A DNA stretch of 36,389 bases, from the IMG/VR virus record IMGVR_UViG_3300020222_000088, positions 1-36,389 of that record; one strand, given 5' to 3'. Source of the stretch: a virus. Below are positions 21,701-36,389 of the stretch, one piece after another. Positions within the stretch are counted from its first letter, which is position 1; the number at the start of each line of letters is the position of its first letter. Position numbers and translations under genes: made by a program. The notes below the pieces were generated by a model, which was given only the letters and a program-made list of their open reading frames with translations, was not told where the DNA came from and made no database searches.

Positions 21701-24700
21701 TTAACATAACTCTTAACACTGGTTATTAATAGTGTGCTGACACCAACAATGGATGTAGATGCTCCACCAACACTTTGTACTACATTAGTAACATATCTTG
21801 CACTTCTCTCATTTGCTTGTCCCTCTAATGCAAATCTATAAGTTCCTAAACCGACACTTTCTGTACCAAATCCAATAATTCTATGTCTAATTTGCTGTTC
21901 TGAAGATCTTGGATTAGCAAAGTTTAATTTTAGCACTCCAGATTCTAAAGAAGAAGTAAATGTACCGATTGATATTGAACTTACAGAAGTCGAATACTTA
22001 TTATTATCTGCAATAAATTCTGATTGATAAGTATCAGTTCCATTATGAGTAACATAAATTTCTGCATAATTTTGCTCATTATTGCTTTTATCTAAAACAT
22101 GAACACACGCAATAAATGATTGGAGTTTATTTGCGTTATCTTCAAAAATAGTGATTGATGTTTTAATTCCACACTGATTATTTTGTGCATATAAAGTTGT
22201 TGCTCCAATTTGTAAAGCACTAGAAATTCCAGCAACAGTAGTATTAAATTGATTTACTAAAATTTTAACGTCATAATCTTCTGTAAAAATTGATTCTGGG
22301 AATATTCTGAGAGTTAAATTATCAAATTGGTCAACATTTCCTTGAACATCAGCAACAAATTTTTGGTCTCCATTTGACGATAGTGTCCCTTTTTCAATTG
22401 TAAAAACATTCGCATCTTTAATACCATCTATAAGGACATCACTATCGGTATAAAGAACTATTGCTTCTGTAAACTGAGTTTCATATGTTTTAGTATTTTT
22501 AATTTGTACCAAGAATCTTGCAAAAGGTTCAGCATAGGTATAAAGATCTGTAAATCCAGTTTCCGCAGTATTTGCGTTTGAAAATTGAGGTCCTATGTTA
22601 TCAAGAGTTAAAACCCTGTTAGATCTACATTCAATATAGTCTGATAGTTTTTTACTCTTAAATTTAATAAACTTAGAAAAAGTTTTACCATCTCTAGTAA
22701 TAATATCTTGATCAAGAACCAAATCATAGCTACTAACGGCATCGACTCTTTTTTCATCAACAAAATCGAAAACAGCAATATTGTCAAACCCAGATCCAGA
22801 AACTAGAGCGGAAGAAGCAGTTGAAACTTGAGTGTCTGCAAAGTTTTTAAGTCCAACTGGATGAACTAAGCGATTTACAAAATCAACTAGTTGATCATAT
22901 GATTTTGTACTTTTTACCGAGTAAGATAGATTCTGATAATAATCATTATCTTCTATAACTTGATAGTCTTCGTTTAATTTGCCAACATCATCTAACCACC
23001 CAAAATTTCTTCTTAATGAGTATGAAACATCAAATTTTCCTTGATTTTCCGAAGATTCATTAATTGTTGCCAGAGTTCCAGAAAGAAGACCACGAATAAT
23101 GTCACCTATTTTTAATTCATATTCTCCAAAAAGTTTAACATTATTAGATCTAAAATCAGTTACTACTAAATCAGTATCAATATAGATGCCAGAATTTGAT
23201 ATAACAGAAACTCTTTCACCAATTGTAAAATTAGATCTTTGTTGAACGGGTACTAAAATAGGATAATCTGTTTTTTTAGTTATTGATGCAAAAGATAACT
23301 GCTCAGTTTTTGCTAATCCTGGATTTCCAGTTGCAACATCTGCAATACTATATTCTAATTTTGCTGGGATCGTATTCTCAAAAGTGAGAACTTTAAAAAA
23401 TTTAAAGTCATAGTCTTGAGAATTAAATCCCAAACCAGGTCTTTCAAGAACAATATTTTCAACAAAAATATCATCACCTGCTGTAAATGGTGCGGTGCTA
23501 AATCCCAAAAATGGTGTTGATAGAAATATTGTTACAATTCCAACTCCAGCGGTAATAATACTATTAATTCCAACCCCATTGCTATTATTTACAGTATAAA
23601 TTTCATGAATTACAGAATTTAATCCTTTTGGAATCTCAACTACATCAACGTCTCTTACAGAAGAAGAATAAACATTAGCTCTTAGTGTCCCAGAATTTAT
23701 AATTTCTTTTGATAGTGGATTAAATAAAACCAACTCTGGAGATGATGTATATTTTTTACCTGCAAATTGAATATCAACACGAGAAACTTCATTATTATTA
23801 ATAAGATCAAGTCTTGGAGATATTAATGCGTCTGGGCGTAAAGTCTTATCAGAAGCATACTCAAATCCTGGATCTAAAATTTTAAATTCTCTAATATCAC
23901 CAATATTTGCCCCAGAAATACTTAAATTAGCATTTCTTCCATTTTGAGAATCGACTGATAAGAAAGATGGAGTTTTTTTGTATCCAAATCCACCAAAAAT
24001 AATATTAATCTTATCAACTCCTCCAGTATCGTTAACTGAGTTAGTTGTGTATTTTAATATTCCTTCATTAAAAGTATATGAGGTTTTTTCTGGTCTAGAT
24101 CTCAATGAAATATCAAATGTTGTATTTCCTACCCCAGTTACATTATATGGGCCAGAATATATGCTATCAATATATTTAATTTGTGAATAGTTTAATACTT
24201 CTGTATCCGAAGTGCTTATATATCCCGATTTTTCTAATTCATAAAATAGTTTTGATGGGAATTCATCGGAGTAGTTTAGGGTAACGAAAGATCCTGTTGA
24301 TCCAAAATTACCATTTTTTACAATATTAAATTGATCAGTTGTTCCAACTGAAACAAATTCATTTATTCTATTGTCATCGGTATAAAAATGTAAGTTATAA
24401 TTAGTTAGAGAAGAATCAGATACATTAAATTTTAAATTAATATTTTTATAAACATTTAATGGAGGATTTACTAAACTTAATTGTTGATTTTTTCCTCCAG
24501 TATTTGCAAATCCTACAACAATAATTGGATTTACTTTTAAGTCCTGTAAAGTTTCACTGAGTTGAATAATATTATCATCTATTCTATAGACATAATATGA
24601 TCCAGTTTCCAATCCACTAACTATTAAATCTGAAGAATCATAAAAAACTTTATCTCCAGTTTTATATCCGTGTAGAGGTAAATTAATTGTATTTTCGTAA

Positions 24701-27700
24701 GAGTCTACCGATTCCGATGAAAAACCAACAGGATTAACTAAAATTTTATCATATGAAGAATTATATTTTAAATATACAAAAGAGGAATTTCCAATACCTT
24801 GTGTAGATTCTGGTTTGACGGATAAGTTAATTAAGTCACCTTTACGCAATGAATGAGATGTAGAAAGTGCTACTGTGGTTTTGTTATTAATGATGTCTCC
24901 AATAACTTCAAATTTTGTAGGTGTTAAAGAATACTCATAACTATCAGCACCATTATCAAAGAAAAATACTCCACCAGTGGTTGTAAGACCAATTTGAGTT
25001 GCAAGACCGATATAATCTTTAGATTTATTAATGATATAAACAGTTTGAGATTTTGCGGATGGTAATGCAAAATATGGACTTATAGATGTAGTGCCTACAG
25101 ATAATGAAGTAGTGGCTAAAGATGGTCTACTTAAAATAACCGCTTGATTAGTTCTAAATGGATGATTTGGAATGTAAATACTCTGAGTTTGTACAGAAAT
25201 TGGATAAGAAATATCTCCCAATGGATAGTTTATTGGGTTGACATTTGATGCTGTAGATCCTACACCAACCGAAACTTTTGGATTAAAGTAAATCGGTTCA
25301 TTGTATTCAGAATCGAAATAATCAAGAGTTAAAGGGATATCCAATTTATTTGATTTTATATAAATTTTTGTGCCTATAGTGTGTGCAGCACCACTTATTC
25401 CTCTTTTCACACGAAGAATATTTCTCTCAGAAAAAATATTTAAAACTGATAAGAATTCTGATCCTACTCCTACAGTACACCCAATAGAAATCGAAGAAGG
25501 TATTCTAGAAATATAGATGTCAGTAACAACTCCCGATGTAACATTTACAGGTATCTCTTTTATAACATTAACATAATCTGAAGTTATACCAACAAGATGA
25601 GTATCAGTTAATTTTGGCACATAAGTTGATAAACCAGAAACTGTTATAATGTTGTTTGCTCCAAAAAATTCATGAAATACTGGTAAATGAGCTCTAACTG
25701 TTGCTTTATCTTTCCAAGTGAATATCACATTTTCATATTCTAAAGTAGTTGCTGCAATACTAACTATTTCTTTTCCTGTGATAGAAGAAACAACAGCATT
25801 TAATCCTGTCCCCCTAGTTCCTGTGTCATCAAATCTAACATTATCACCTATAGAATATCCATCTCCAGTCTCTATAATTGAATACTGATTAATAGATCCG
25901 CTTGTTACCGAGTCGACAACTAAGATCTGATTACTTATATTATTTGATTCATATAAAAATTCGCAAGAAGCAGTTTCATCATTAACTTTATATGGGAAAG
26001 TATTTCTAATTAAATTCGAATTATTAAAATCAAAATTTTGATCTAGATTTAAAAAGTTTTCTTCAATAACTTTTGATCTATAAGTATCACCTATAAAATA
26101 TGGAAATGTTGGTATTAAGTTATTAAATGTATCTGTTTTAATACCTGCAAAATATGCATATGTTCCATTTGGAAAATCTGGAGTTACACAATATCTACCA
26201 TTGTGAGTATCTAAATCTTGATTTCCAATAAATCTATAATCCTCAACAAAAAATCCAATATCAAAAGAAGACGGTCTATCAGATATAAAAGATCCACTTT
26301 CTGAATATCCAGTTCTTAACAATCTTACTGGAGATCCATTGTCTTCTGGATCAGAGTATCCATATGGACCATATATTGGGTTTCCATCATAAGCCCACCC
26401 AATAATTGGTGAATGAGTAACTCCATTATCCCCAAACTGACTATCACCATAACTTGTTGAGTATCCTACCCAACCATATCCTAGACCATTTCTTGATTGT
26501 GTTATAATTTCTTTGCCATATCTAAATTCTGTATTAAGAGTTAAAGGTCTAATAGAAATATCAAAAAGAGCATTAATGCCTGGAGAAGCGGCTCTAATTA
26601 CTGTATTTTCGTCATAATTGATTCCCCCATTAATAACAACAACACTTGTAACTTTTCCATTAGAGACATTTGCTCTCAAAATAGCACCTACACCACTTCC
26701 GCTTATAACCAAATCTGGGGGAGCGTTATATTCTAAACCATCAACTAAAACCTTAACACTCCTTATTGACCCATCATATATAAATGGTTTAAACTCCGCA
26801 CCTTTTCCATTCTTAACAATAATTTTTGGTTTTTTATGCAAGTTAATTGTCTCTGACCCATACTTGCTACCATTTTCATAAAGATAAGCATCAACTATAG
26901 GTCCTCTAACAATAGGTGTTGCAGTGATCACCCCAACAATACTACTACCATATGATACGTTTACCGATAGTTTAACATCTGGATATTTAAAAATATGGTA
27001 TCCTGCCCCCTGAGAAGAGAATTTAATATAATTTCTTCTATCATAATTAGACGTAATAGAGGCACCTATACCAGCATCTGCTAGTCTAAATTTATTAGTA
27101 TCAACTTTTAAAATGTAATAATTATGTGAAGTTGATAGTCCAGAAATAGAGGTACTTCCAACACCAACACATTGATATTCAACTAAATCTCCATCATTAA
27201 AATTGTGATTATCAAAAGTTATCCAATCCTGTGTTAAGATTACTCTTTCTGGTTTAATATATAATTTTCTATTTTGGTATCCAGATCCAGAATTTGTTAC
27301 TTTAATCTCTTTGAGAGTTAATTGTGAATCGAAAATTCTAAATTTGTGGATTCCGACTGCACTTATAGTTGTAAATCCAACTGTATTAATTCCAGATACA
27401 TAATCATCAAATCTTGAATATAATTGTACTGTTTTATTATTAATTACTTCTACATAATAACTCGCACCATTAACTAAGGATAAATTTTGATTAAAATTCC
27501 CACCCGAATATGTCCCTAATCCAAGAGGATCATTTCCATTTGGATTATATACAACTTGCTGCCCATTTTTAAAATTATGATTTGTTAAGAATGATATTGT
27601 TTCTAAATCAATATCAACTCCCCCAGAATCACTTGTGCTTCTAGCATCGAATTCAATTTCTCTATATCTTTTTTCTAAAACTGGTTCTAAAGTACACCCA

Positions 27701-30111
27701 CTTCCATTTCCGCCAGTGATAGTGACTGAAATTATTTTTTCAATATCAAAATCTTGAGGATCGACCAAAACTCCTTTAACATTTCCAGATACAACTGGCT
27801 GAACTAATGCGTTTATACCTCCAGAATTTGGTGATCCTAATTCAATGGTAGGCGGATTTATTACATCATAATTAATACCAGAATTTAATAAAGAAATTTT
27901 TTCTACAGGACCATAATAAATCTTATCATCAGTTTTATAGTTAATAATATCTACACCATTTGCAATTAATCCTATTTTACCAGGTTGAGTTTTTTCATTT
28001 AACCCGTTTGTATTATCTCCCGTTATTAAGAATTTAGCAAGATTTTTTTGTGGTCTTATAAAACGATCCTTCAAAGATCTCAAAACAAAAGTGTGTGAGC
28101 CACCAACCCCTGGCGATAATGCATAAAACTCCAAATAATCATCAGTTTCAATAAAAGATCTAGAACTGAAAAGAGTGATTTTATTTGTAAAAGTGGAATC
28201 TACCTTTACAAAATAAGATGCGCCAGATTGAAGACCTTCTAATGGTGTTGAGTCTGGATAATATATAACTTCATCTCCAGTAATAAATGGAACTGATGAA
28301 GGAAATGATATAATATGATAAAGTAAAGTCTGTAAATCCAATCCTTGTAAAGAAGATCCACCCTCACCATTTGGTATGGTAGATGAAGGAATTTCAACAT
28401 CAATTTGATAAGATGGTAATGAATTTGACGCAACATAAAAATATTCATCATCAAGATAAACATTCTGCACATCTGATGTTAGAATATTATTACCATATTG
28501 TATGGAAGTTGCGGAAGACGTTGCTCTTTTTAATTTTCTTCTTAAATCATAAGATAGCGAAGAATTTGGTGAGAATCCAATAAGATTATCTAATGTAATT
28601 TGGCTATTATTATAGTTAATATTAGCAATTTTAGCATTAGAAAAAGCCACATTATTTACAGACCCTCTAATAATAATATCTACTAAGTCACCTTCTCTTA
28701 AACTTGATTTATCAATAGTACTGAATAATGTAAATGATGATCCGTTGATAGTTTTTATTTGATATCTAACACTAGTGTTATAAACCCATGAATTTGCAAA
28801 TATTTCTTTAAAAGTTTTATTTTCATTTGGATTTTTAATCGCAAACCCAATATTTTTTACTGTTATTTTTTCTCCTTCATTTAATTCTTGATTTTTAGTT
28901 TTACTAATAAAATCTGAAAGAACTCCAGTAATTCTAATCTTACATATCTTAGATAAATTACCTTCTTCATATCCAAAATACAAATCTTCAGATATAATAG
29001 TATCTGTTGTTGATATTGGGTAAGTAATATTTGCACATCCTAAAAACTGATTAACAGTTTTTTCATCATATGAAATAACATTATCTCCAGAAACTATAGA
29101 TCCAGATTCTGGAAATCCAATAGTAGAATCTACAGTAATAATAGAAGATCCAACTGAAACATCTCCTATAACTTTAGTTTTTGGTGTAATTGTAAAAGTT
29201 CCCTGAATACTGTCACTATCAGCAAATCCTAAAAATAAGTCAATTCTATAGAATATTTCTCCCCCTCTAGATAAAATTTCTACGTTTGAAATAGATGCTT
29301 TAGTTTCTTCATCATTTTCTCTATAAAGAGTTTGTCCAATTAATTTAAGAGGGTTACCACTAACATTTTTAGCTACAACAATTTCTCTTCTTAAAAATTG
29401 TGCTGATGATGGTCTTAAAAGTAAATTATCTAAATTAATTATTTTTGGAGTTTCTCCAAAAAGAACATTGAATAAAATTCTGAATGATTCTTCTGTACCT
29501 TTCGATTGATAGAATGTTCTGGCTTCCTTTATAAAATTACTTACATCTAAACCATCAACAAATTCAACATTTTCTAGTCCAGGAGTCAGAGACGTTTTTA
29601 ATTTTTTATAAAACTCTTTAAGAAAACAAACACTTAAATTTTCAACCTTGGAAGAATTTGTATGAGTGCTTGCCGACGTAGTAGAAAAAACTAATTCTTC
29701 TTGGTCTAGAGCAGATCGACAACTGGTTACACCAGAGAATCCACGAACACATCCAGTAAAACTTGTTGCAGTGGAATCGGTATATGTAATAATCTCATCA
29801 TCAATTTTTAATAGACCATTTTTAGGTGGAAATCCCTTAGTGCTATTTACAAATATTTCACTATCATTTAATCCAACAGAAGAAGTCAATGTCGTATATC
29901 CAGACATTGCTTCTGGTGTAAGATTATCAAGTTTTAAATATAAATCTAAGTTTTCTGCAATATCCGCTGCCCCACCAGGAAAATCTTGTGAAAGATAATA
30001 CTGTTTTAAAAAATCAACCGTTTTTGGACTTTCGCTAAGTAAAAACTCTGGAAGTTGACTTTCGATTATTTGACCGACTTTAACTCTCGCATCAAATCCA
30101 GTTGTAATCAT
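15730..30111 (-). CDS. Giant virion structural protein (4793 aa) with YHYH domain, in gp7 position
   Basis: This is a single intact frame of 14.4 kb. The N-terminal 230 residues (VGQIIESQLPEFLLSESPKT, then FIKEARTFYQSKGTEESFRI and LLLRPSSAQFLRRE) are the conserved start of the large baseplate protein lying between gp6 and gp8 in cyanophages, i.e. the slot of T4 gene 7, which is much shorter (1032 residues). At about residues 1230-1325 there is a YHYH-type domain (HSPIIGWAYDGNPIYGPYGY ... NGRYCVTPDFPNGTYAYF). Dispersed GxGY motifs occur throughout. A dense in-frame repeat block covers about 3470-4240. The C-terminal region contains a conserved segment (LIFINGVPQTPKTSYQF ... IFFYRGSRS). Its Shine-Dalgarno AGGAGA is made by the last two Arg codons of gene 6 with one base between stop and start, so translation is probably coupled. 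Wedge or peripheral baseplate function is inferred from position and size. Confidence 0.85.
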   Translation of the reverse strand: MITTGFDARVKVGQIIESQLPEFLLSESPKTVDFLKQYYLSQDFPGGAADIAENLDLYLKLDNLTPEAMSGYTTLTSSVGLNDSEIFVNSTKGFPPKNGLLKIDDEIITYTDSTATSFTGCVRGFSGVTSCRSALDQEELVFSTTSASTHTNSSKVENLSVCFLKEFYKKLKTSLTPGLENVEFVDGLDVSNFIKEARTFYQSKGTEESFRILFNVLFGETPKIINLDNLLLRPSSAQFLRREIVVAKNVSGNPLKLIGQTLYRENDEETKASISNVEILSRGGEIFYRIDLFLGFADSDSIQGTFTITPKTKVIGDVSVGSSIITVDSTIGFPESGSIVSGDNVISYDEKTVNQFLGCANITYPISTTDTIISEDLYFGYEEGNLSKICKIRITGVLSDFISKTKNQELNEGEKITVKNIGFAIKNPNENKTFKEIFANSWVYNTSVRYQIKTINGSSFTLFSTIDKSSLREGDLVDIIIRGSVNNVAFSNAKIANINYNNSQITLDNLIGFSPNSSLSYDLRRKLKRATSSATSIQYGNNILTSDVQNVYLDDEYFYVASNSLPSYQIDVEIPSSTIPNGEGGSSLQGLDLQTLLYHIISFPSSVPFITGDEVIYYPDSTPLEGLQSGASYFVKVDSTFTNKITLFSSRSFIETDDYLEFYALSPGVGGSHTFVLRSLKDRFIRPQKNLAKFLITGDNTNGLNEKTQPGKIGLIANGVDIINYKTDDKIYYGPVEKISLLNSGINYDVINPPTIELGSPNSGGINALVQPVVSGNVKGVLVDPQDFDIEKIISVTITGGNGSGCTLEPVLEKRYREIEFDARSTSDSGGVDIDLETISFLTNHNFKNGQQVVYNPNGNDPLGLGTYSGGNFNQNLSLVNGASYYVEVINNKTVQLYSRFDDYVSGINTVGFTTISAVGIHKFRIFDSQLTLKEIKVTNSGSGYQNRKLYIKPERVILTQDWITFDNHNFNDGDLVEYQCVGVGSTSISGLSTSHNYYILKVDTNKFRLADAGIGASITSNYDRRNYIKFSSQGAGYHIFKYPDVKLSVNVSYGSSIVGVITATPIVRGPIVDAYLYENGSKYGSETINLHKKPKIIVKNGKGAEFKPFIYDGSIRSVKVLVDGLEYNAPPDLVISGSGVGAILRANVSNGKVTSVVVINGGINYDENTVIRAASPGINALFDISIRPLTLNTEFRYGKEIITQSRNGLGYGWVGYSTSYGDSQFGDNGVTHSPIIGWAYDGNPIYGPYGYSDPEDNGSPVRLLRTGYSESGSFISDRPSSFDIGFFVEDYRFIGNQDLDTHNGRYCVTPDFPNGTYAYFAGIKTDTFNNLIPTFPYFIGDTYRSKVIEENFLNLDQNFDFNNSNLIRNTFPYKVNDETASCEFLYESNNISNQILVVDSVTSGSINQYSIIETGDGYSIGDNVRFDDTGTRGTGLNAVVSSITGKEIVSIAATTLEYENVIFTWKDKATVRAHLPVFHEFFGANNIITVSGLSTYVPKLTDTHLVGITSDYVNVIKEIPVNVTSGVVTDIYISRIPSSISIGCTVGVGSEFLSVLNIFSERNILRVKRGISGAAHTIGTKIYIKSNKLDIPLTLDYFDSEYNEPIYFNPKVSVGVGSTASNVNPINYPLGDISYPISVQTQSIYIPNHPFRTNQAVILSRPSLATTSLSVGTTSISPYFALPSAKSQTVYIINKSKDYIGLATQIGLTTTGGVFFFDNGADSYEYSLTPTKFEVIGDIINNKTTVALSTSHSLRKGDLINLSVKPESTQGIGNSSFVYLKYNSSYDKILVNPVGFSSESVDSYENTINLPLHGYKTGDKVFYDSSDLIVSGLETGSYYVYRIDDNIIQLSETLQDLKVNPIIVVGFANTGGKNQQLSLVNPPLNVYKNINLKFNVSDSSLTNYNLHFYTDDNRINEFVSVGTTDQFNIVKNGNFGSTGSFVTLNYSDEFPSKLFYELEKSGYISTSDTEVLNYSQIKYIDSIYSGPYNVTGVGNTTFDISLRSRPEKTSYTFNEGILKYTTNSVNDTGGVDKINIIFGGFGYKKTPSFLSVDSQNGRNANLSISGANIGDIREFKILDPGFEYASDKTLRPDALISPRLDLINNNEVSRVDIQFAGKKYTSSPELVLFNPLSKEIINSGTLRANVYSSSVRDVDVVEIPKGLNSVIHEIYTVNNSNGVGINSIITAGVGIVTIFLSTPFLGFSTAPFTAGDDIFVENIVLERPGLGFNSQDYDFKFFKVLTFENTIPAKLEYSIADVATGNPGLAKTEQLSFASITKKTDYPILVPVQQRSNFTIGERVSVISNSGIYIDTDLVVTDFRSNNVKLFGEYELKIGDIIRGLLSGTLATINESSENQGKFDVSYSLRRNFGWLDDVGKLNEDYQVIEDNDYYQNLSYSVKSTKSYDQLVDFVNRLVHPVGLKNFADTQVSTASSALVSGSGFDNIAVFDFVDEKRVDAVSSYDLVLDQDIITRDGKTFSKFIKFKSKKLSDYIECRSNRVLTLDNIGPQFSNANTAETGFTDLYTYAEPFARFLVQIKNTKTYETQFTEAIVLYTDSDVLIDGIKDANVFTIEKGTLSSNGDQKFVADVQGNVDQFDNLTLRIFPESIFTEDYDVKILVNQFNTTVAGISSALQIGATTLYAQNNQCGIKTSITIFEDNANKLQSFIACVHVLDKSNNEQNYAEIYVTHNGTDTYQSEFIADNNKYSTSVSSISIGTFTSSLESGVLKLNFANPRSSEQQIRHRIIGFGTESVGLGTYRFALEGQANERSARYVTNVVQSVGGASTSIVGVSTLLITSVKSYVNVSIGQTRAVHQLMTMHDGINPYIMQGPFLSIGSTSGIGSFTSEYVNDRMELIFHPDPSVTGICSIISFSEQLYTEIDAANIPPDLINGPINEKVILGEYNGSQGDRINRLDFSITYESIPVFSKIFNPENIDQLVLDTGTFRLISHFFSPNEEITYTEGSTFVGVPAIPMGIGATLVGGTVFTGDFLAGFSTITGVSTSLGLLPGQTVLGLGIAGGTTIVSIANTFRYFQGNVSTGSTIITGVANTLALNYVGAGIFSGNGTSLGTVHSVGIGSIIASTSLPVGTGVTYYLNVLGVGVSLSTVSSASSFRNSYTSGISTDICPSTLYVLKLDNDRFKVTGTRNSGIALTFTNDGSGNAHKLTMNKRLEKSLIMIDNVVQYPLTYTPINYSLVNNSGQISFASTIFGISGISSIRINDVLEVDNEFMKVVNFGQAPTASGPISGVGTYLVMNVERGFSGTIATEHFDGTEARIYRGGYNIADSTLYFTQAPLGSGFSRLDSSNLLRPYAKFDGRVYLRRDYSTNKIYDDISDQFSGIGATFKLTSSGQPTIGIEAGNSILFNNQIFQTPTTGNNAGNNYELEEVGANTNITYTGITSSDGSVVKSLVDVNQNQLPRGGIIISLGSTNGLGYAIPDGAAVGIVTGPNGAITKIVSSATTASYNTFTNFAYSHVTGIATITTLNAHDFVYGDQISIRNLKLECPDGYAGVTPNVAISTVVYNKTTGIMTVTTATPHYLASGVNFRLRNLKFDCPIGAGGTIGIVTAYYSKTTGILTVTTNYAHGLGIGGTVQLGDLQFSCSGPSGVTTTIFPDGTQGYFFPVNNVGFATEFTTNVGTSTITHNYQEGGFVRVGITTNLFPDGSRGYIFTTKKIINSTNFETNVGTSTITHNYISGGTVEVGITTNIFPDERGTPFTISNFDYYKTTGVSTITFNYNHNFRSNETIKLQNIKFDCPIGAGATIGITSVTYDNVTGIMTVSTAWNHLLTSGNTIRLFDLKFSCDSSGYGTTTIFPDGTQGYYFPVNNVGFATEFTTNVGTSTISHYYVNGGYVQVGITTSIFPDSDNNYKIVSIPSANSIVVNVGPSTITHNYVGDGYAYGKKRVGPYRVRTIINDNTFETDLYTVGFAHTYVSGGEVSKYYTFNAGSGYRGGEVGVYVTSLTGYGATIKAFTGIGGTLGFNIIGGGSGYAFTNTYISIPEPSYENLNVKGVSRIGIGSTTETGIGLLLTLDIDASQGEYGGTIGITSALYDKVTGIMTVTTDSVHNLNVGNHLQMYDLNFNCPIGAGATIGITSVTYDNVTGIMTVSTAWNHLQLVGNTIKLFDLKFSCDSSGYGTTTIFPDGSQGYYFPINSVGFATEFTTNVGTSTISHYYVNGGYVQVGITTSVFPDGTRGYDYVVNSVVGINTFAVNVGTSTITHNYINGGYIKPIGIGTETGEVRSFKIVRPGYAFQRGDVFTAVGLVTAKGLSQPIAPFELTVLDIFTDSFAAWQFGELDFIDSIKPMQDGNRTRFPLLYNGQLLSFEKNPGDPDSALIDLDSVLLIFINGVPQTPKTSYQFSGGTSFSFTSPPSAESDIAIFFYRGSRSIDSVFVNVNETVKKGDTVKIESNNTNRSTVAQNSRVVYEVSAADKIETNLYNEIGIDDINFKPLTWTKQKVDKFISGEVVYKTRDILESQIYPTAQIIKNVSSTDTELFIDKPELFRYEEDESSISIGEIDAFITTINEDPVAARLTASVSAGSTIQSVSVVNGGSGYNGSTIGISIAAPKQIGVGIGTTATATATIVNGSITSVVVDNPGFGYNASKLPQVLAPVATIPYEIITSINDVFGFSGIITGITTSTGVGGHPLALKFYLNANVSFAPLLVGYPINIFNTNVGSGVTSVDLDNNSIVGIGTSFLDNIYYIHSITFVGQNAEILTNVKSNSSIIGINTVGSATTNVGRFSWGRLTGFTRSSEPLAIGVTGFTVNPGLTTFPLIQRRGFGLRDMGGLRKILL
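17774..17870 (-). repeat. 97-bp near-identical repeat, copy 1
   Basis: This stretch matches 18755-18851 base for base (offset 981) except for one difference that I could see, g versus a in the context gaagt(g/a)attc. Flanking repeat sequence on the low-coordinate side has clearly diverged at many silent positions, so the near identity is local. It encodes the end of a PIGAGATIGI / TAWNHL segment. Confidence 0.85.
18755..18851 (-). repeat. 97-bp near-identical repeat, copy 2
   Basis: Second copy of the element at 17774-17870, 981 bases away (327 codons, so in the same frame). Deletion or duplication between the copies would remove or add 327 residues without a frameshift. Confidence 0.85.
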
Positions 30112-30112
30112 A

Positions 30113-32008
30113 TTATCTCCTCGTTAATTCTCCGTTTGAATAACTTGATGTAACTTTAAATCCAACACCAGATATTTGCTCACCTGAAGATATAGTATCC
30201 TTAACCATATTTATCTTACTATTAGAAACGTCTAATGATAGATAAAGATCCTTTAATCCAACAACATCATTTGATTCTGGAAATGCCTGAACTTGCACTA
30301 TATTGTTTGGTAGTATTGTGGAAGTAATCTGAACTGGACCTAAAAGAATTTCTCCCGTGGTATAATTGACTGTCCCAACTCTGTTGTTAACAACTCTATA
30401 TTTTGTAGTTTCTTCATCAAGAGTTACAATTGATATAATCCCAGATCCATTCCCATTTGGAGTGTCAGTCAAGAAACAAGTATTATTCTCTCCAAAAATA
30501 GTAAATCCAGTACTCTTAATATTAAATCCCTTTGGATTAATATGAAACTGGTTCCCAAAACACAGTTCATATTGTGCAAATCTATTAATTGAAGCATTCA
30601 GATTTCTTCTCATAATAACTTTCGTAATATTTGAGGTAATAGCAGCATCTGCATTATCAATCAATTGAAGTATTTTACTATACTTAAATCTTCCACCAAA
30701 TTTGTTCATATCAAGAGATTTGGAATACGCATCAACTACATTAAATACTGTTGTTTTTAGATTGTCTATATTTGTAACTTGTGAAGAGTTATAATAAACA
30801 TAACTCTCAAGTTCAACATAAAGAACTTTAAGATCAATAATTTCTTGTTTAATACCAACAAGAGAATATCCTGACAACTTGTTTAATATAAACTGTTTAT
30901 CAAAATCAGAAACAAAATCTCCATTTTTTGGTTTAATACTAATTAAAACTTTTCCATATTGTGGTGGATTTAATTCATCTCCACCAACCACAGAAACTGA
31001 TTCTGTATTTGGATAAATTGTTTGAATAACAGACTCATAATCCCTACTAGTAACTGCTCTATATTGTGATGAATATAATCTAGGTGCAAAATATTTGACT
31101 GAATCAATACTTTCTATTTCTCCACCGTTCTGAGCATTTCTAACAGTATTAACCGAAATTGATCCTGTTGGAATAACAAGTTCACCTACTGATCCTCTAA
31201 CTGTTCCAGCATAATCAAATGAGCTTGGACCATTTCCGTCTTCTCCATCAGTTATAATATATGTGACTGTAATGATAGATCCATTTTCTATTTTTTTACC
31301 AAAAAATCCATCTCCAAATAACAATTCATATTTTTCATCTTTAATTTCTTGTATTAAATAAGTCTCAGATATAGATTTAATGTTTAAAATATTATCGATT
31401 TGTTTATATTCTTTACCCTCTCCACCGTCCGATAAACCTTTAACCTTAACAAGAATCGTAGAAGTATCAATAAATGAGTTATCTAAAATAAATCTTTGAT
31501 CTAGAGATCCATTTACAACAAATTGTTTTTTGAGAAGTGTTCCTTGATATACATTAAGTGGTTCACTTGTGGTGCCAAAGTTGGCAACGCCATTTACAAT
31601 TGTTGTTGTAATTGGTTCTGGAATTGAGAAAATATATGAACTATCATTTGTATTACCTACACACACCAGTCCCGCCTGTAGGGTGAGTGTTGCTGACGTA
31701 GAGGATGTTGGGATACTGAAGTAAACCTCTGCCCTTGCTGCCGTTCTAGAGCGGGGTACGTACCCAATGTTGCGAGCTAAAGAAACAACATTTTCACGAA
31801 TGGTTGCCGAATCGAGGAAAGCCTCATTGGCAACCATATTTGTGTTAAATGCAGTAATATATGTGTTATACGCTAGAGTGTCGATTAAGATTGAAAAGTT
31901 TGATCCCTCAAAGTCAAAATCCGTGAAATTCGAATTTGCACGAAGATAATCTTTGATGGACGTTTTTATTTGATCAAAATCTAGATTTGTAAATTTTGTA
32001 AAAGGCAT
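30113..32008 (-). CDS. 6: Baseplate wedge subunit, gp6-like
   Basis: This 631-residue protein is a T4-like gp6 (660 residues in T4), the wedge protein that forms the iris-like ring of the inner baseplate and belongs to the baseplate J family. The N-terminus (FDQIKTSIKDYLRANSNFTD, FEGSNFSILIDTLAYNTYI, FLDSATIRENVVSLARNIGY) is strongly conserved across gp6 proteins. The middle holds a J-like beta domain (VTSRDYESVIQTIYPNTES), and the C-terminus ends in GELTRR. Those last Arg codons double as the Shine-Dalgarno of the giant gene. It begins one base after the gp25 stop, and 25-6 pairing is typical of contractile phages. Identity is confident. Confidence 0.93.
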   Translation of the reverse strand: MPFTKFTNLDFDQIKTSIKDYLRANSNFTDFDFEGSNFSILIDTLAYNTYITAFNTNMVANEAFLDSATIRENVVSLARNIGYVPRSRTAARAEVYFSIPTSSTSATLTLQAGLVCVGNTNDSSYIFSIPEPITTTIVNGVANFGTTSEPLNVYQGTLLKKQFVVNGSLDQRFILDNSFIDTSTILVKVKGLSDGGEGKEYKQIDNILNIKSISETYLIQEIKDEKYELLFGDGFFGKKIENGSIITVTYIITDGEDGNGPSSFDYAGTVRGSVGELVIPTGSISVNTVRNAQNGGEIESIDSVKYFAPRLYSSQYRAVTSRDYESVIQTIYPNTESVSVVGGDELNPPQYGKVLISIKPKNGDFVSDFDKQFILNKLSGYSLVGIKQEIIDLKVLYVELESYVYYNSSQVTNIDNLKTTVFNVVDAYSKSLDMNKFGGRFKYSKILQLIDNADAAITSNITKVIMRRNLNASINRFAQYELCFGNQFHINPKGFNIKSTGFTIFGENNTCFLTDTPNGNGSGIISIVTLDEETTKYRVVNNRVGTVNYTTGEILLGPVQITSTILPNNIVQVQAFPESNDVVGLKDLYLSLDVSNSKINMVKDTISSGEQISGVGFKVTSSYSNGELTRR

Positions 32009-32009
32009 T

Positions 32010-32411
32010 TTACCTAGTTGCCTCTAATATGAACGTGAATTGTTGTGCTGGAGTTTCTTGACCAAGAATATCAAAAGCTATATCAACTGTAAAAGTATTT
32101 GAGTCTGGTTCTGGTTTCACTTCAACGATCAAACCAGTAACTCTAGGCTCATAACTTTTAATCGATGTAATAATTTGTTCACGAATAATTGCTGCTGTAC
32201 CAAAGTCAACAAATTCAAACAAACTTTGTGTTATTTCGGATCCAAGAGAGGAATTAAAAACTCTTTCTGTTGGAACTGTTTGAACTAAATTTCTAACCGA
32301 ACGGATAATTGCCGATTCATTTTTAATGATCGGCAAATCCTTAGTAACAGGATGAGGATCAAAAGATAAACTAATATCTTTAAATCCCCTTGATATCCTC
32401 TGTACAGGCAT
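32010..32411 (-). CDS. 25: Baseplate wedge subunit, gp25-like
   Basis: This 133-residue protein has the same length as T4 gp25 (132) and the gp25/Afp-type wedge fold signature: IIKNESAIIRSVRNLVQTVP, RVFNSSLGSEITQSLFEFVD and the C-terminal VDIAFDILGQETPAQQFTF strand pair. In contractile tails gp25 (with gp6 and gp53) forms the wedge core that triggers sheath contraction. It is the first gene of the tail operon in this window, 25 bases downstream of a CATAAATA late promoter, and its stop is one base from the gp6 start. Confidence is high. Confidence 0.93.
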   Translation of the reverse strand: MPVQRISRGFKDISLSFDPHPVTKDLPIIKNESAIIRSVRNLVQTVPTERVFNSSLGSEITQSLFEFVDFGTAAIIREQIITSIKSYEPRVTGLIVEVKPEPDSNTFTVDIAFDILGQETPAQQFTFILEATR

Positions 32412-32754: not shown

Positions 32755-33096
32755 TTAACGATCTACTTCACGTATCGAATATGAGTCCGAATTGAGGTAT
32801 TTTAAGATTTCCAAGGCAATTAAGCGTGGGTTTCCTTCACCACAAGTATACACATCCACCGCTAAACACCCATTTTCAGGCCAAGTATGGCAAGAAACAT
32901 GACTTTCTGCAAGTGCAATCACGATTGTACATCCCTGTGGATCAAAATGATGCAAAAAAGTGTTCAAAATCTCCATTTTTGCACGTTGAATGCCTCTAAT
33001 CATGGCATTTTGAAGTGATTTTGAATCATTAATTGTCTCTGAGGCAATATTATACACTTCTAAGAGCAAATGTTTGCCCATTGAATGCTGTTTCAA
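32755..33096 (-). CDS. speD: S-adenosylmethionine decarboxylase proenzyme (pyruvoyl type)
   Basis: This enzyme removes CO2 from S-adenosylmethionine to supply the aminopropyl donor for spermidine synthesis. At 113 residues it is the short prokaryotic form. The self-cleavage and active-site motif AESHVSCHTWPE is intact: Glu64-Ser65 is the expected processing bond that makes the pyruvoyl group from Ser65, with His70 and, in DVYTCGEGNP, Cys85. The spacing of these three residues (5 and 15) equals that of the known bacterial enzyme (63, 68, 83). The N-terminus GKHLLLEVYNI is also typical; Met6 is an alternative start. It is an auxiliary metabolic gene known in cyanophages, probably changing host polyamine levels during infection. 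A late-type AATAAATA box lies upstream. Confidence is high. Confidence 0.95.
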   Translation of the reverse strand: MKQHSMGKHLLLEVYNIASETINDSKSLQNAMIRGIQRAKMEILNTFLHHFDPQGCTIVIALAESHVSCHTWPENGCLAVDVYTCGEGNPRLIALEILKYLNSDSYSIREVDR

Positions 33097-34078: not shown

Positions 34079-34843
34079 TCAGATTATGCGAGTTTTTTCG
34101 TGTCCAACGCGAACGCGAGGATCACACCAAATCTCAAATCCTGCTTCTTTTGCATCAAGACAGAATGAAACATCTTCACCACACATATCTTGGACATCAC
34201 CACTCTCAAAAACTTGCATCTTTGGAGCAAACCAAGGATACTTCATTTCAGAGTGTTCGAACACACCATTCTTAATCAGAAGCCAACCAAATCCAGTATA
34301 ATCAACAGTAAATGGTTTACGACGTTTTGAGATACTCTCAATAGTTTCGTGATTCATTACACCACCGTTATTACGAAAATCATCTTCTTCTAACCAGTGA
34401 GCAACGGATGTAGTACGACCATCTTCGGTACAGTACCAACCTGCTGCAATATCTTTATCCATTAATACGAGTTGCCAGAACTTCTCAGTATTAAAAACGA
34501 TGTCACTATCAATCCAGAGTTGATAATCATAAGGTAGTTTTCCATCCCAAGGAACTTGATCAGGACCACGAAGAACATTTGCACCTAAACACTTGCAACG
34601 TGCAAAGTTCACCATCGAACTGTAGTCTTGAGAAATCTGAATGCTTGCACCCGCTTGAACCAGATCAAAGCAGAGTTGTACAAAACTCTTCAGATATGTA
34701 TAAGAAACTCCTCTACCTGGGAGGCAAAAAACAACACTTTTGCCTCTGATCATTTCTTTGGCAAGATCGTAATCAAATTCTTCAGTTGGGTTGTTTCTGG
34801 CAACTACAGGTGTTTTTGCTTTAACAGTAAATCCTTTAGCCAT
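34079..34843 (-). CDS. Glycosyltransferase-like protein, GT-A fold
   Basis: This 254-residue protein has features of a GT-A glycosyltransferase. After a variable N-terminus it shows a nucleotide-binding-like strand (KSVVFCLPGRGVSYTYLKSF), then a region ending in a DXD-type motif (YQLWIDSDIVF; Asp112-Ser113-Asp114) expected to bind a metal and sugar nucleotide. Later it has FTVDYTGFGWLLIKNGVF and GEDVSFCLDAKEAGFEIWCD, the second acidic block of such enzymes (Glu223-Asp224), and VGHEK near the end (His248). Similar proteins are common in cyanophages. The substrate cannot be read from sequence; targets could be host surface polysaccharide, phage proteins or DNA. It leads a coupled run of small genes. 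Family-level confidence is good, activity inferred. Confidence 0.75.
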   Translation of the reverse strand: MAKGFTVKAKTPVVARNNPTEEFDYDLAKEMIRGKSVVFCLPGRGVSYTYLKSFVQLCFDLVQAGASIQISQDYSSMVNFARCKCLGANVLRGPDQVPWDGKLPYDYQLWIDSDIVFNTEKFWQLVLMDKDIAAGWYCTEDGRTTSVAHWLEEDDFRNNGGVMNHETIESISKRRKPFTVDYTGFGWLLIKNGVFEHSEMKYPWFAPKMQVFESGDVQDMCGEDVSFCLDAKEAGFEIWCDPRVRVGHEKTRII

Positions 34844-34892: not shown

Positions 34893-35066
34893 TCAAGAAG
34901 GGTCATATTCTGACAACACAACTTCATCGCCCTCAAGATCGAACTTAATTTCAGTATCTTCATACCAAGATAGTTCATTAGCGATCCACTCAGGAATTAT
35001 AACATAATACTCACCAGTAATTGGATCTACACTGATTGCCTTAATATTATGGGAATTTTTTTTCAT
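34893..35066 (-). CDS. AbrB-like small regulator (57 aa)
   Basis: The frame encodes MKKNSHNIKAISVDPITGEY, then YVIIPEWIANELSWYEDTEI and KFDLEGDEVVLSEYDPS. The pattern 'v.vDp.tGeyyv.iPewi...L.w..gd.i.f...gdevvl.' is that of AbrB / SpoVT-type swapped-hairpin DNA-binding or antitoxin-like domains, which T4-like cyanophages often carry. It is short and has no partner toxin beside it. Upstream lies a -10-like box embedded in a 10-bp inverted repeat with large spacer, plus a direct repeat, suggesting autoregulation. It is the last gene before the GC-rich block. Family assignment is moderate; DNA binding is inferred. Confidence 0.65.
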   Translation of the reverse strand: MKKNSHNIKAISVDPITGEYYVIIPEWIANELSWYEDTEIKFDLEGDEVVLSEYDPS

Positions 35067-35086: not shown

Positions 35087-35136
35087 TTTTTCGGTATTAT
35101 ATAGCGACCTTGTGAGTATTTTTAACTACCGAAAAA
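35087..35136 (-). promoter_or_regulatory. Candidate promoter/operator of the AbrB-like gene
   Basis: Arms TTTTTCGGTA (35087-35096) and TACCGAAAAA (35127-35136) form a perfect 10-bp inverted repeat 30 bases apart. A minus-strand TATAAT (35101-35096) overlaps the promoter-proximal arm by one base and lies 30 bases before the ATG. The symmetry fits a regulator site; a long-looped RNA stem is the alternative. Confidence 0.4.
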
Positions 35137-35166
35137 ATTTTTATCCCCCTTGTGTATTTTTAGCTA
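35108..35166. repeat. Imperfect direct repeat upstream of the AbrB-like gene
   Basis: Two copies: CCTTGTGAGTATTTTTAAC (35108-35126, continuing TA) and CCTTGTGTATTTTTAGCTA (35148-35166), differing by a 2-base insertion and one substitution. Their start points are 40 bases apart. Possible second binding site; no function shown. Confidence 0.5.
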
Positions 35167-35200
35167 GCTTTGGTAACACTTTATAGATTAGGGTAGTTAG

Positions 35201-35216
35201 GCGTTTTTATAAACGC
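35201..35216. other. Short perfect hairpin at the AT-rich / GC-rich boundary
   Basis: GCGTTT (35201-35206) and AAACGC (35211-35216) pair around a 4-base loop TTAT. Sequence to the left is strongly AT-rich; to the right GC-rich for the remaining 1.17 kb. It could be a terminator remnant, a recombination scar or an assembly join. Confidence 0.6.
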
Positions 35217-35250
35217 GGCCCCGCGCCGACCGCGCAACCCGCACGGGGCC
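35217..35250. terminator. GC-rich stem after the leftmost GC-block gene
   Basis: GGCCCCG (35217-35223) pairs with CGGGGCC (35244-35250) around a 20-base loop, 28 bases past the stop of the 73-residue gene. There is no U-tract right after it on the minus transcript, so termination is uncertain. The 35067-35278 stretch holds no gene that I can support. Confidence 0.3.
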
Positions 35251-35278
35251 ACTGCGGTCACGAACGCTCAGCACTGCC

Positions 35279-35500
35279 TCAGCGCACGTCTGCTAAGGCG
35301 CTGTTGGCGGTGCTCATACGGGTGGCACTGCTGCCAGCGGCGCCGCCATGAGTGCGGACGCGGGTGCTGCCGCCTTTGATCCGATCCACCCAGCGGTTGG
35401 ATGCAGCACCATGAGCAGTGGGCAGGCGGTGAAGGGTCAGAGCACCTGAAGCGATGGCGGCGTTCAGATCAGCGGCGGTCATCACGGTGAGGGTGGTCAT
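35279..35500 (-). CDS. Unknown small basic protein (73 aa), GC-rich block
   Basis: The protein begins MTTLTVMTAADLNAAIASGA and continues with LHRLPTAHGAASNRWVDRIK, then a Gly/Arg/Thr/Ser-rich tail. The frame is open upstream to 35533, but I choose the ATG at 35500. The longer form would start upstream of the TACAAT box (35529-35524), and the chosen start has the same leader as the 60-residue gene. No family recognised. Codon use (mostly G/C third positions) is quite unlike the phage genes to the left. It is basic and Ala-rich with no membrane segment. Function unknown. Confidence 0.5.
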   Translation of the reverse strand: MTTLTVMTAADLNAAIASGALTLHRLPTAHGAASNRWVDRIKGGSTRVRTHGGAAGSSATRMSTANSALADVR

Positions 35501-35523
35501 CGGTGTGGTTGTGAACTGAGAGA

Positions 35524-35529
35524 ATTGTA
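35524..35529 (-). promoter_or_regulatory. -10 box TACAAT before the 73-residue gene
   Basis: TACAAT on the minus strand lies 23 bases before ATG. The leader contains CTCAGTTCACAACCAC and then ACCG before ATG, nearly the same as the leader of the 60-residue gene at 35960-35982, and has no Shine-Dalgarno. No strong -35 was seen. Confidence 0.5.
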
Positions 35530-35551
35530 GCACGAAGTGGAGGGTGGTGGG

Positions 35552-35716
35552 TCAGTACCCGTTGAGGAAGTCGTGCAGTGCTTCCTGGTATTCTGCCTCA
35601 GTGTGGAAGGTCCGAGCACCGATCACGCAAGGGAAAGTCCGCTTAGGGGCGGGTGCCTTGCTGGGCTCCTTGCCCTGGGAGAGGATCTGTTGCACGTAGG
35701 GATTGGTTTTGTTCAT
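35552..35716 (-). CDS. Unknown small protein (54 aa), GC-rich block
   Basis: The frame encodes MNKTNPYVQQILSQGKEPSK, then APAPKRTFPCVIGARTFHTE and AEYQEALHDFLNGY. The second half (an aromatic strand followed by an acidic helix EYQEALHDFL) looks like a small folded unit; the first half is a Pro/Lys linker. No family recognised. Only 6 bases separate a TACAAT box from the ATG, so the transcript would start at or next to the start codon. Evidence for being real is the promoter fit, codon use matching its neighbours, and a start that suits the box. Confidence 0.5.
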   Translation of the reverse strand: MNKTNPYVQQILSQGKEPSKAPAPKRTFPCVIGARTFHTEAEYQEALHDFLNGY

Positions 35717-35722
35717 ACCCGT

Positions 35723-35728
35723 ATTGTA
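35723..35728 (-). promoter_or_regulatory. -10 box TACAAT giving a probably leaderless mRNA
   Basis: TACAAT at 35728-35723 on the minus strand, followed by six bases and then ATG at 35716. With the usual 6-7 base distance, transcription would begin at the start codon. A weak stem CACCT/AGGTG (35763-35767 and 35772-35776) lies between this box and the preceding gene. Confidence 0.45.
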
Positions 35729-35776
35729 GGGGTTCAGGGGGGGTTTGGGAGTGGTTGTGTGCCACCTCCTCAGGTG

Positions 35777-35959
35777 TCACTCTTCGTCGTCCTCATACCA
35801 GGCGGCGGATTCGAAGTCGTCCTGATCCTCAACGGGCAGGGCGTCGCGGCGCACCAGCTCCACATAGCAGGCGTCGTACTGAGCGTCGTCGTGGTTGACG
35901 TTGGCGTCGTCCATCAGGGAAACCAGTTCGGCGTCAGAGAGGGAAGCGAAGGCGGTCAT
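35777..35959 (-). CDS. Unknown small acidic protein (60 aa), GC-rich block
   Basis: The protein opens MTAFASLSDAELVSLMDDAN and ends in DFESAAWYEDDEE. It is strongly acidic (about a third Asp/Glu) with one likely helix pair (DAELVSLMDDANVNHDD ... YDACYVELVRRDAL). No family recognised. Very acidic small phage proteins sometimes mimic DNA, but nothing here shows that. The ATG follows a TATACT box by 23 bases with the shared CTCAGTTCA-type leader. Function unknown. Confidence 0.55.
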   Translation of the reverse strand: MTAFASLSDAELVSLMDDANVNHDDAQYDACYVELVRRDALPVEDQDDFESAAWYEDDEE

Positions 35960-35982
35960 CGGTGGTTGTCTGAACTGAGATC

Positions 35983-35988
35983 AGTATA
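35983..35988 (-). promoter_or_regulatory. -10 box TATACT before the 60-residue gene
   Basis: TATACT at 35988-35983 on the minus strand, then GATCTCAGTTCAGACAACCA and CCG before the ATG. The CTCAGTTCA...ACAACCAC leader is shared with the 73-residue gene and lacks a Shine-Dalgarno. Confidence 0.5.
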
Positions 35989-36002
35989 GAGGGTCGGCAG
36001 GG

Positions 36003-36200
36003 TCAGTCGCGGTCGCTGATGTGCCAGACCGTCGATTGGACCATAGGCGCCTTGCCTGAGCGGATTGCCTCCCGCTGTGCTTCCTCCTGCTGCATCCGCT
36101 GCAGGTAGGATGCCATGACCGCCTGGCAGATGGGGTCGGCCGCAGCGGCGTCGTTGATCAGGAAGGCGCCGCCGTGAGCGGGTTGGAGTGGTTTCTTCAT
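36003..36200 (-). CDS. Unknown small protein (65 aa), GC-rich block
   Basis: From the ATG at 36200 the frame encodes MKKPLQPAHGGAFLINDAAA, then ADPICQAVMASYLQRMQQEE and AQREAIRSGKAPMVQSTVWH. The frame is open further up to 36251, but that longer form would run through the terminator-like hairpin and the TATACT box, so the shorter start is preferred. A helix-rich centre (ICQAVMASYLQRMQQEEAQREAI) suggests a small alpha-helical protein. No family recognised. The promoter is 6-7 bases before ATG. Confidence 0.55.
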   Translation of the reverse strand: MKKPLQPAHGGAFLINDAAAADPICQAVMASYLQRMQQEEAQREAIRSGKAPMVQSTVWHISDRD

Positions 36201-36206
36201 GCTGTC

Positions 36207-36212
36207 AGTATA
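36207..36212 (-). promoter_or_regulatory. -10 box TATACT giving a probably leaderless mRNA
   Basis: TATACT at 36212-36207 on the minus strand is 6 bases from the ATG at 36200, so transcription would start at about the start codon. It follows directly after the terminator-like hairpin of the upstream gene. Confidence 0.45.
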
Positions 36213-36217
36213 GAAGC

Positions 36218-36241
36218 AAAAGGGAGGGGTCGTCCCCCTCC
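36218..36241 (-). terminator. Rho-independent-like terminator of the metallopeptidase-like gene
   Basis: On the minus strand GGAGGGG (36241-36235) pairs with CCCCTCC (36229-36223) around a 5-base loop, followed by CTTTT. It lies 13 bases past the stop of the HELIH gene. The stem is strong; the T-tract is short (four). Confidence 0.6.
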
Positions 36242-36253
36242 GTTGTGCCACTA

Positions 36254-36389
36254 TCAGAATTGGAAGCGGTCGGCGTAGATCTGCTCCAGGCGGTATGCCT
36301 CCTCCTCCCGTGCCTCCTCCTCCAGGTTGCCCTCCAGGGTTTGGCGGCAGTGGATCAACTCATGGATCAGGGTCACCACGTACTCAGAG
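36254..36389 (-). CDS. Probable zinc metallopeptidase-like protein, N-terminus cut by window edge
   Basis: Only the last 44 full codons are in the window. They encode SEYVVTLIHELIHCRQTLEG, then NLEEEAREEEAYRLEQIYAD and RFQF before TGA. HELIH is an HExxH zinc-binding site (the two His as ligands, Glu as general base), and the downstream EEEAYRLE helix offers the third Glu ligand, as in gluzincin-type small phage or bacterial peptidase-like proteins. Family cannot be set from the fragment. Codon use matches the GC-rich block. It is followed by a strong terminator-like hairpin. Catalytic activity is an inference from the motif. Confidence 0.6.
   Translation of the reverse strand, partial: SEYVVTLIHELIHCRQTLEGNLEEEAREEEAYRLEQIYADRFQF

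Follow-up and report, generated by a model that had tools for sequence, protein, structure and literature searches.

A natural compositional border upstream of gp25 in T4-like cyanophages, marked by a conserved noncoding element and an array of small-gene cassettes

The sharp change in base composition near one end of the cyanophage contig analysed here is a natural border, separating a hypervariable hot spot of small genes upstream of gp25 from the AT-rich baseplate module of a T4-like cyanophage (Kyanoviridae). The window, by which we mean the whole stretch of DNA analysed, is the entire IMG/VR contig IMGVR_UViG_3300020222_000088 (36,389 bases). The explanation that we favour, and hold to be fairly probable as a whole, is that two modules meet at this border, with a cassette array upstream of it and a noncoding element at the join that would be a regulatory site for the structural module.

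The GC step and the AT-rich module

The first-pass annotation of this contig had reported an abrupt switch from AT-rich to GC-rich DNA near 35205-35217, and the switch is plain in 50-base bins: GC content is 0.26-0.40 up to position 35200, and every bin from 35201 onwards has 0.50-0.72. At 35200 itself, GC rises from about 32% to 60-72% in the space of 50 bases. Codon use was also said to differ between the two sides, as is indeed the case (GC3 of 0.19-0.28 for the genes of the AT-rich side vs 0.69-0.80 for the complete genes of the GC-rich side), and the distinct promoter style attributed to the GC-rich side is found in the sequences upstream of its genes. The claim that all genes lie on the minus strand holds for all the real-looking ones, left and right of the switch. 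With two adjoining stretches of 500 bases, the step in the window (0.29) exceeds the 95% quantile of random positions in related contigs (0.12). Nor is the window alone in this respect: measured over 500 bases at the border element described below, the step averages 0.19 in 119 de-duplicated contigs and is larger than 0.05 in 97% of them.

The GC-rich island (35217..36389, minus strand, 50-72% GC per 50 bases) is an array of small early-type genes lying upstream of gp25, its far end in the window being the end of the contig. It is also present in two related loci, L005 and L006. In both of these, GC content declines gradually away from the border (from about 58-60% to 40-50%), giving an island with one sharp and one blurred edge. 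In the cultured phage S-PM2, the sole multi-kilobase GC-rich stretch of the genome (21-25 kb, GC 0.51-0.58) directly precedes the corresponding place at 25.15 kb. Beside S-PM2 and S-SRM01, other cultured cyanomyoviruses among the 15 genomes searched carry the element, often with a weak GC step and with other promoters.

The AT-rich side corresponds to the gp25-gp6-giant wedge module known from T4-like cyanophages, with 67-70% nucleotide identity to S-SRM01, S-SKS1, P-SSM2 and others, and it is this module that places the contig among the T4-like cyanomyoviruses (Kyanoviridae). Reading away from the border on the minus strand, its first gene encodes a protein of 57 amino acids that we call AbrB/MazE-like (34893..35066, phrog_661), followed by a glycosyltransferase-like (GT-like) protein (34079..34843; phrog_1574, E 4e-123, with weak glycosyltransferase matches), the baseplate wedge subunit gp25 (32010..32411, aligned with the annotated gp25/gp6 of S-SRM01 and S-SKS1), gp6 (30113-32008) and the giant wedge protein (15730-30111). 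A gene clearly encoding an S-adenosylmethionine decarboxylase (PF02675, E 3e-31) lies at 32755-33096 (minus strand), between the GT-like gene and gp25. In 157 of 173 loci the AbrB-like gene is followed by the GT-like gene, and the AbrB-like, GT-like, gp25, gp6 and gp7 genes together make up a stable AT-rich module downstream of the border.

The AbrB/MazE assignment is weak and made by sequence comparison: PF04014 (MazE/AbrB) matches 23 of 43 relatives, with a best E of 2e-4, and leaves the window protein itself unmatched, the model of the protein (pLDDT 74) has no fold match, and a sequence search of the PDB returned nothing significant. A consensus scan places a sigma-70-like promoter of the AbrB-like gene (TTAAAA-18-TATAAT) at 35096..35125 on the minus strand, with A/T tracts before it, and 26% of relatives vs 8% of shuffled sequences have a perfect TATAAT ahead of the AbrB-like start codon. 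The tracts (AAAAATTTTTT, then A5) are conserved at +61 to +84 from the start of the element, before the AbrB-like gene, and could be an UP element or bent DNA.

A conserved noncoding element at the border

The switch had been thought to fall on a hairpin. Both of the stems proposed are present, GCGTTT/AAACGC at 35216-35211/35206-35201 on the minus strand and, upstream of the border element, a GC stem-loop GGCCCCG...CGGGGCC (35217..35250, minus strand, arms 35250-35244/35223-35217), but the border region of the window folds no better than shuffled sequences (z -0.7) and the first stem is not conserved, retaining at least 5 pairs in 6% of relatives, a proportion equal to that obtained when arms are swapped between loci. 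The GCGTTT/AAACGC hairpin is incidental to the border, and we rejected it as the key feature since it is not kept in relatives. A scan for intrinsic terminators found none at the hairpin, the minus-strand RNA past the stem being A-rich and not U-rich. More generally, 46% of relatives vs 5% of shuffles have a stem of at least 6 GC pairs somewhere in the roughly 57 nucleotides upstream of the border.

The part of the border that is conserved, overlooked in the first reading, lies just inside the AT-rich side. It is a noncoding element of about 54 bases (TATAAAAACGCCTAACTACCCTAATCTATAAAGTGTTACCAAAGCTAGCTAAAAA...; 35157..35211, minus strand) with a core, TAATCTATAA, at 35190-35181, and it can be aligned without gaps in 127 non-redundant relatives, with a pairwise identity of 0.65-0.79 within the element vs about 0.27 (0.25-0.3) in the flanking sequence on either side, the fall being more gradual downstream. 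Its parts are, in order, an A-tract (TATAAAAAC), a left module, the core TAnnCTAYAA, a right module and a late-promoter-like TAAATA. In the unbiased set of copies, the A-tract and the core are constant while the modules swap, the left one being CTACCC, GGGTCCC, GGATCC or GGTACC and the right one GTGTTAC, GACCC or TCTTGC, in many combinations. Many of the IMG/VR copies were collected with the exact core pattern, so that conservation of the core is partly built in for those copies; the set fetched by protein and the whole-genome search are unaffected.

Applied to 15 complete cyanomyovirus genomes, a model built on sequence only finds a single copy of the element in 13 and two copies in S-B43; the same genome search found none in S-CRM01, T4, S-TIM5 and Pelagibacter phage HTVC008M. 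Syn9, S-RSM4 and P-SSM4 were outside the training of the model and yet are matched, at sites lying in unusually wide intergenic gaps upstream of baseplate genes, Syn9 (E 2e-4) and S-RSM4 (E 1e-3) giving the weakest matches. The second copy in S-B43 (MN018232), which is the weaker of the two (E 7e-4), is at 53273-53307 (minus strand) in a long unannotated gap. In 176 of 190 cases the AbrB-like gene stands immediately after the element, and several of the 14 exceptions have too little upstream sequence.

Small-gene cassettes of the GC-rich island

Upstream of the element, the island is made up of small genes, many of them behind a stereotyped promoter-leader. A typical cassette consists of a -10 box (TACAAT or TATACT), 2-4 bases, the motif CTCAGTTCA, an A/C-rich leader of about 12 nucleotides lacking a Shine-Dalgarno sequence, an ATG and an open reading frame of around 60 amino acids. 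In total 345 unique cassettes were counted, with TACAAT in 192 and TATACT in 93. At 151 element loci, searched up to 3 kb upstream, CTCAG[TA]TCA occurs 59 times on the same strand, vs once on the opposite strand, once downstream and one occurrence expected from shuffling. Contigs fetched by the motif provided 177 distinct copies, for which start-codon spacing, reading frame and strand were outside the search pattern. A start codon follows 18-27 nucleotides from the start of the motif in all 177, 99% of the copies open a reading frame of at least 35 amino acids (median 62), the strand bias on these contigs is 241:0, a Shine-Dalgarno-like sequence is seen in 8% and local GC is 0.58. On contigs that carry the element, 213 of 222 cassettes are upstream of it, and a contig can hold up to 5 exact copies. 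At least 6 GC pairs are found upstream of cassettes in 23% of cases vs 4% of shuffles, a stem that is clear in S-PM2 and not evident in most.

Five genes of the island, all on the minus strand, are found in the window. Cassette gene A (35279..35500, 73 amino acids) belongs to cassette family 13 (9 members), with its promoter-leader at 35512..35529 (TACAAT 35529-35524, CTCAGTTCA 35520-35512), and cassette gene C (35777..35959, 60 amino acids) to cassette family 12 (10 members), with its promoter-leader at 35971..35988 (TATACT 35988-35983, CTCAGTTCA 35979-35971); the protein match of the latter is 100% in L005 and 84% in L006. Gene B (35552..35716, 54 amino acids; phrog_649, E 7e-14) and gene D (36003..36200, 65 amino acids; phrog_14769, E 2e-21) are preceded by TACAAT at 35728-35723 and TATACT at 36212-36207, respectively. 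In both cases the box is exactly 6 bases before the ATG, unlike in the adjoining CTCAGTTCA cassettes, which suggests leaderless or near-leaderless transcripts. The fifth, gene E (36254..36389), is cut by the end of the contig; its C-terminal part resembles a fragment of an HExxH-like metallopeptidase (phrog_10499, E 2e-5, and weak putative-metallopeptidase Pfam matches).

Among the 15 complete cyanomyovirus genomes, the exact cassette motif is found only in S-PM2 and S-SRM01. The former has three copies, which all fall within its GC-rich island and have their -10 boxes at 22.07, 24.31 and 24.58 kb; the latter has two, upstream of its element. One S-PM2 cassette promoter (NC_006820) is followed by an unannotated reading frame of 55 amino acids at 22097 (plus strand), related to gene B through phrog_649. 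The other two S-PM2 cassettes precede genes resembling cassette families 10 and 0. The single match of the motif in T4 is presumably due to chance.

The genes carried by the 345 unique cassettes form 66 families, including 29 singletons. When neighbouring cassette genes are compared between loci, the family of the next gene agrees in only 22% of comparisons, vs an AbrB-like to GT-like order that is kept as reported above, and this shuffled order fits exchange by homologous recombination at the cassette. By analogy with the PeSL (promoter-early stem-loop) cassettes of other T4-like phages, we infer that the host polymerase would read the cassettes as early genes and that the repeated promoter/stem-loop sequence would supply the homology for single-gene swaps.

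A step as sharp as that of the window, found so close to the end of a contig and with no exact copy of the join in other IMG/VR contigs, could in principle have been created in assembly by the fusion of a cyanophage with unrelated GC-rich DNA, as the first-pass annotation had suggested. This seems to us exceedingly improbable, as independent contigs share the join, the genes and the element, and the cultured S-PM2 does too. Two independent IMG/VR contigs, L030 and L080, give a single alignment through the border, L006 and L007 match the window in layout, and the step recurs at the conserved element in the 119 contigs mentioned above; the 80 IMG/VR loci were gathered by the GT-like protein (34079-34843), making their selection independent of the join. 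In addition, core genes (AbrB-like, GT-like, gp25, gp6 or gp7) are found on 56 of 74 contig pieces bearing cassettes. These homologous joins in relatives led us to reject both a chimera and a unique insertion. The suggestion of a recent accessory insertion is partly correct: the GC-rich side does consist of accessory, shuffled DNA, but this region is long established, always occupies one place and is not a single recent insertion. The window contains no tRNA, according to a tRNA scan, that could be an attachment site.

Recent capture of the GC-rich genes from a GC-rich host, before any amelioration, would account for their composition, GC3 values of 0.69-0.80 being near those expected for GC-rich Synechococcus hosts. 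Such amelioration of host genes in cyanophage genomes has been discussed (Sullivan 2010, PMC3037559), which counts in favour of this reading. The cassette genes, however, have a phage-specific leader, and their matches are to phage families of unknown function or are lacking altogether, with the exception of one Pfam DUF, while the island is found at a constant place across many divergent phages. The earlier idea that the GC-rich side is a piece of host DNA fares no better, as a search of 257 Gb of cellular genomes gives one match to the motif with its -10 box, apparently a chance one, vs at least 119 viral stretches. We consider host capture very unlikely, if somewhat less so than a chimera. 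The lone cellular match lies in an AT-rich stretch of an alphaproteobacterial contig without phage core genes, and a host origin of the leader was rejected.

Possible role of the element and comparison with known systems

The element probably acts as DNA, as its sequence is conserved in contrast to that of its flanks and it has no predicted RNA pairing: a search for a structured RNA or riboswitch gave no Rfam match, no pairs with RNAalifold and no covariation. At its 3' end is a late-promoter-like box, TAAAAATA (35155..35162, minus strand), matching TATAAATA at 7 of 8 positions. Matches to TATAAATA at 6 or more positions are found in 53% of relatives vs 31% of shuffles, and at 7 positions in 15% vs 4%, a modest enrichment; the box has a preferred offset of 26 from the start of the core, although another stretch further downstream, at +60, scores higher. 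Given this box, the sigma-70-type promoter that follows and the lack of predicted RNA structure, the element is most likely a composite transcription-control site, that is, to judge from the sequence, a regulatory or late-promoter site restarting transcription for the structural module. Bound by a protein, it would end the influence of the early array and turn on the structural module late in infection. It could also be autoregulated by the AbrB-like protein. Nearest-neighbour agreement between element alleles and this protein is 0.67 for the right module, vs 0.60 with the GT-like protein as a control, and at chance for the left module, and co-variation of the two was set aside as not clear beyond phylogeny.

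Tentatively, and with less confidence than for the border as a whole, the element might be an undescribed cis-acting control site present family-wide, one per genome, with recombining specificity modules: a master switch, or a replication or packaging initiation site, beside a phage-specific cassette system for swapping early genes. That it is itself a replication origin or packaging-initiation (pac) site, with the GC island and a dip in skew as side effects, we find unlikely, despite its single copy per genome, its strong conservation next to GC stem-loops and A/T tracts, and a GC skew that changes locally at the element though gene direction is constant. Several origins, and packaging starts of low specificity, are generally assumed for T4-like phages, which speaks against this reading, and a regulatory role accords better with the late-promoter-like box and with the constant association with the AbrB-like gene. 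Moreover, five complete genomes have no genome-wide turn of GC skew at the element, the skew being positive on both sides and dipping only over a few kb upstream. This weakens the case for an origin, even if a T4-type replication scheme could still hide one. A packaging role keeps some plausibility from the 2-3x read density reported in S-PM2 just downstream of its ORFanage, where terminal redundancy has been proposed (Puxty 2015, PMC4503421).

Whether as the regulatory site that we favour or as a start for packaging or replication, a family-wide single-copy site provides a concrete target for understanding the split between early and late transcription in T4-like cyanophages, which lack MotA, or the initiation of those processes, and S-PM2 grown on Synechococcus WH7803 offers a laboratory system that is already available. 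Most of the flexible genes in cyanophages are tiny orphans whose timing and origin are unknown. With a stereotyped promoter-leader, such genes can be found by sequence alone even when unannotated, as with the reading frame at 22097 in S-PM2; the leader also leads to the prediction that they act early, in host takeover, and suggests a route for their exchange. We found no earlier description of the element or of the CTCAGTTCA cassettes; either may already appear in the original publications on PeSLs, the genome of S-PM2 or the Syn9 transcriptome.

Of the systems already known, the gp55 late promoter of T4 and cyanophages (NATAAATA; PMC2984593) resembles the element in having a TAAATA-like box, here at a preferred position, upstream of structural genes. 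The element differs in running about 45 bases further upstream and in its swappable modules. To our knowledge, ordinary late promoters do not have such modules.

The GC-rich island can be compared to the ORFanage of S-PM2 (ORF002-ORF078, PMC2984593; ORF017-050 deleted in S-PM2d, PMC4503421), which is also a region upstream of gp25/gp6 with small orphan genes mostly on one strand. In S-PM2, however, the cassettes and the high GC content are both restricted to the end of that region, its last few kb at about 21-25 kb, and GC in the deleted part is ordinary for a phage. The location and type of genes are also those of a published region, and the consulted sections of its descriptions make no mention of a border element, a GC step or a repeated leader.

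The closest likeness is to PeSLs, the mobile regulatory cassettes of T4-like phages (Arbiol 2010 and Comeau 2014, as cited in PMC4503421). As they are summarised there, PeSLs have an early-type promoter, sometimes beside a stem-loop, in near-identical copies between small genes of hyperplastic regions, with genes shuffled one at a time; the cassettes likewise place many near-identical early or sigma-70-type promoters before small genes. PeSLs were judged sparse and an unlikely explanation of the S-PM2 ORFanage (Puxty 2015, PMC4503421), and the stem-loops reported in that study, at 11.4 and 16.8 kb, are outside the 21-25 kb island, which holds three cassettes. The cassettes resemble PeSLs but, compared with PeSLs as summarised in that source, have a phage-specific, initially transcribed CTCAGTTCA, a leader without a Shine-Dalgarno sequence and a GC-rich composition, and they occur only in the few kb that precede one single-copy element.
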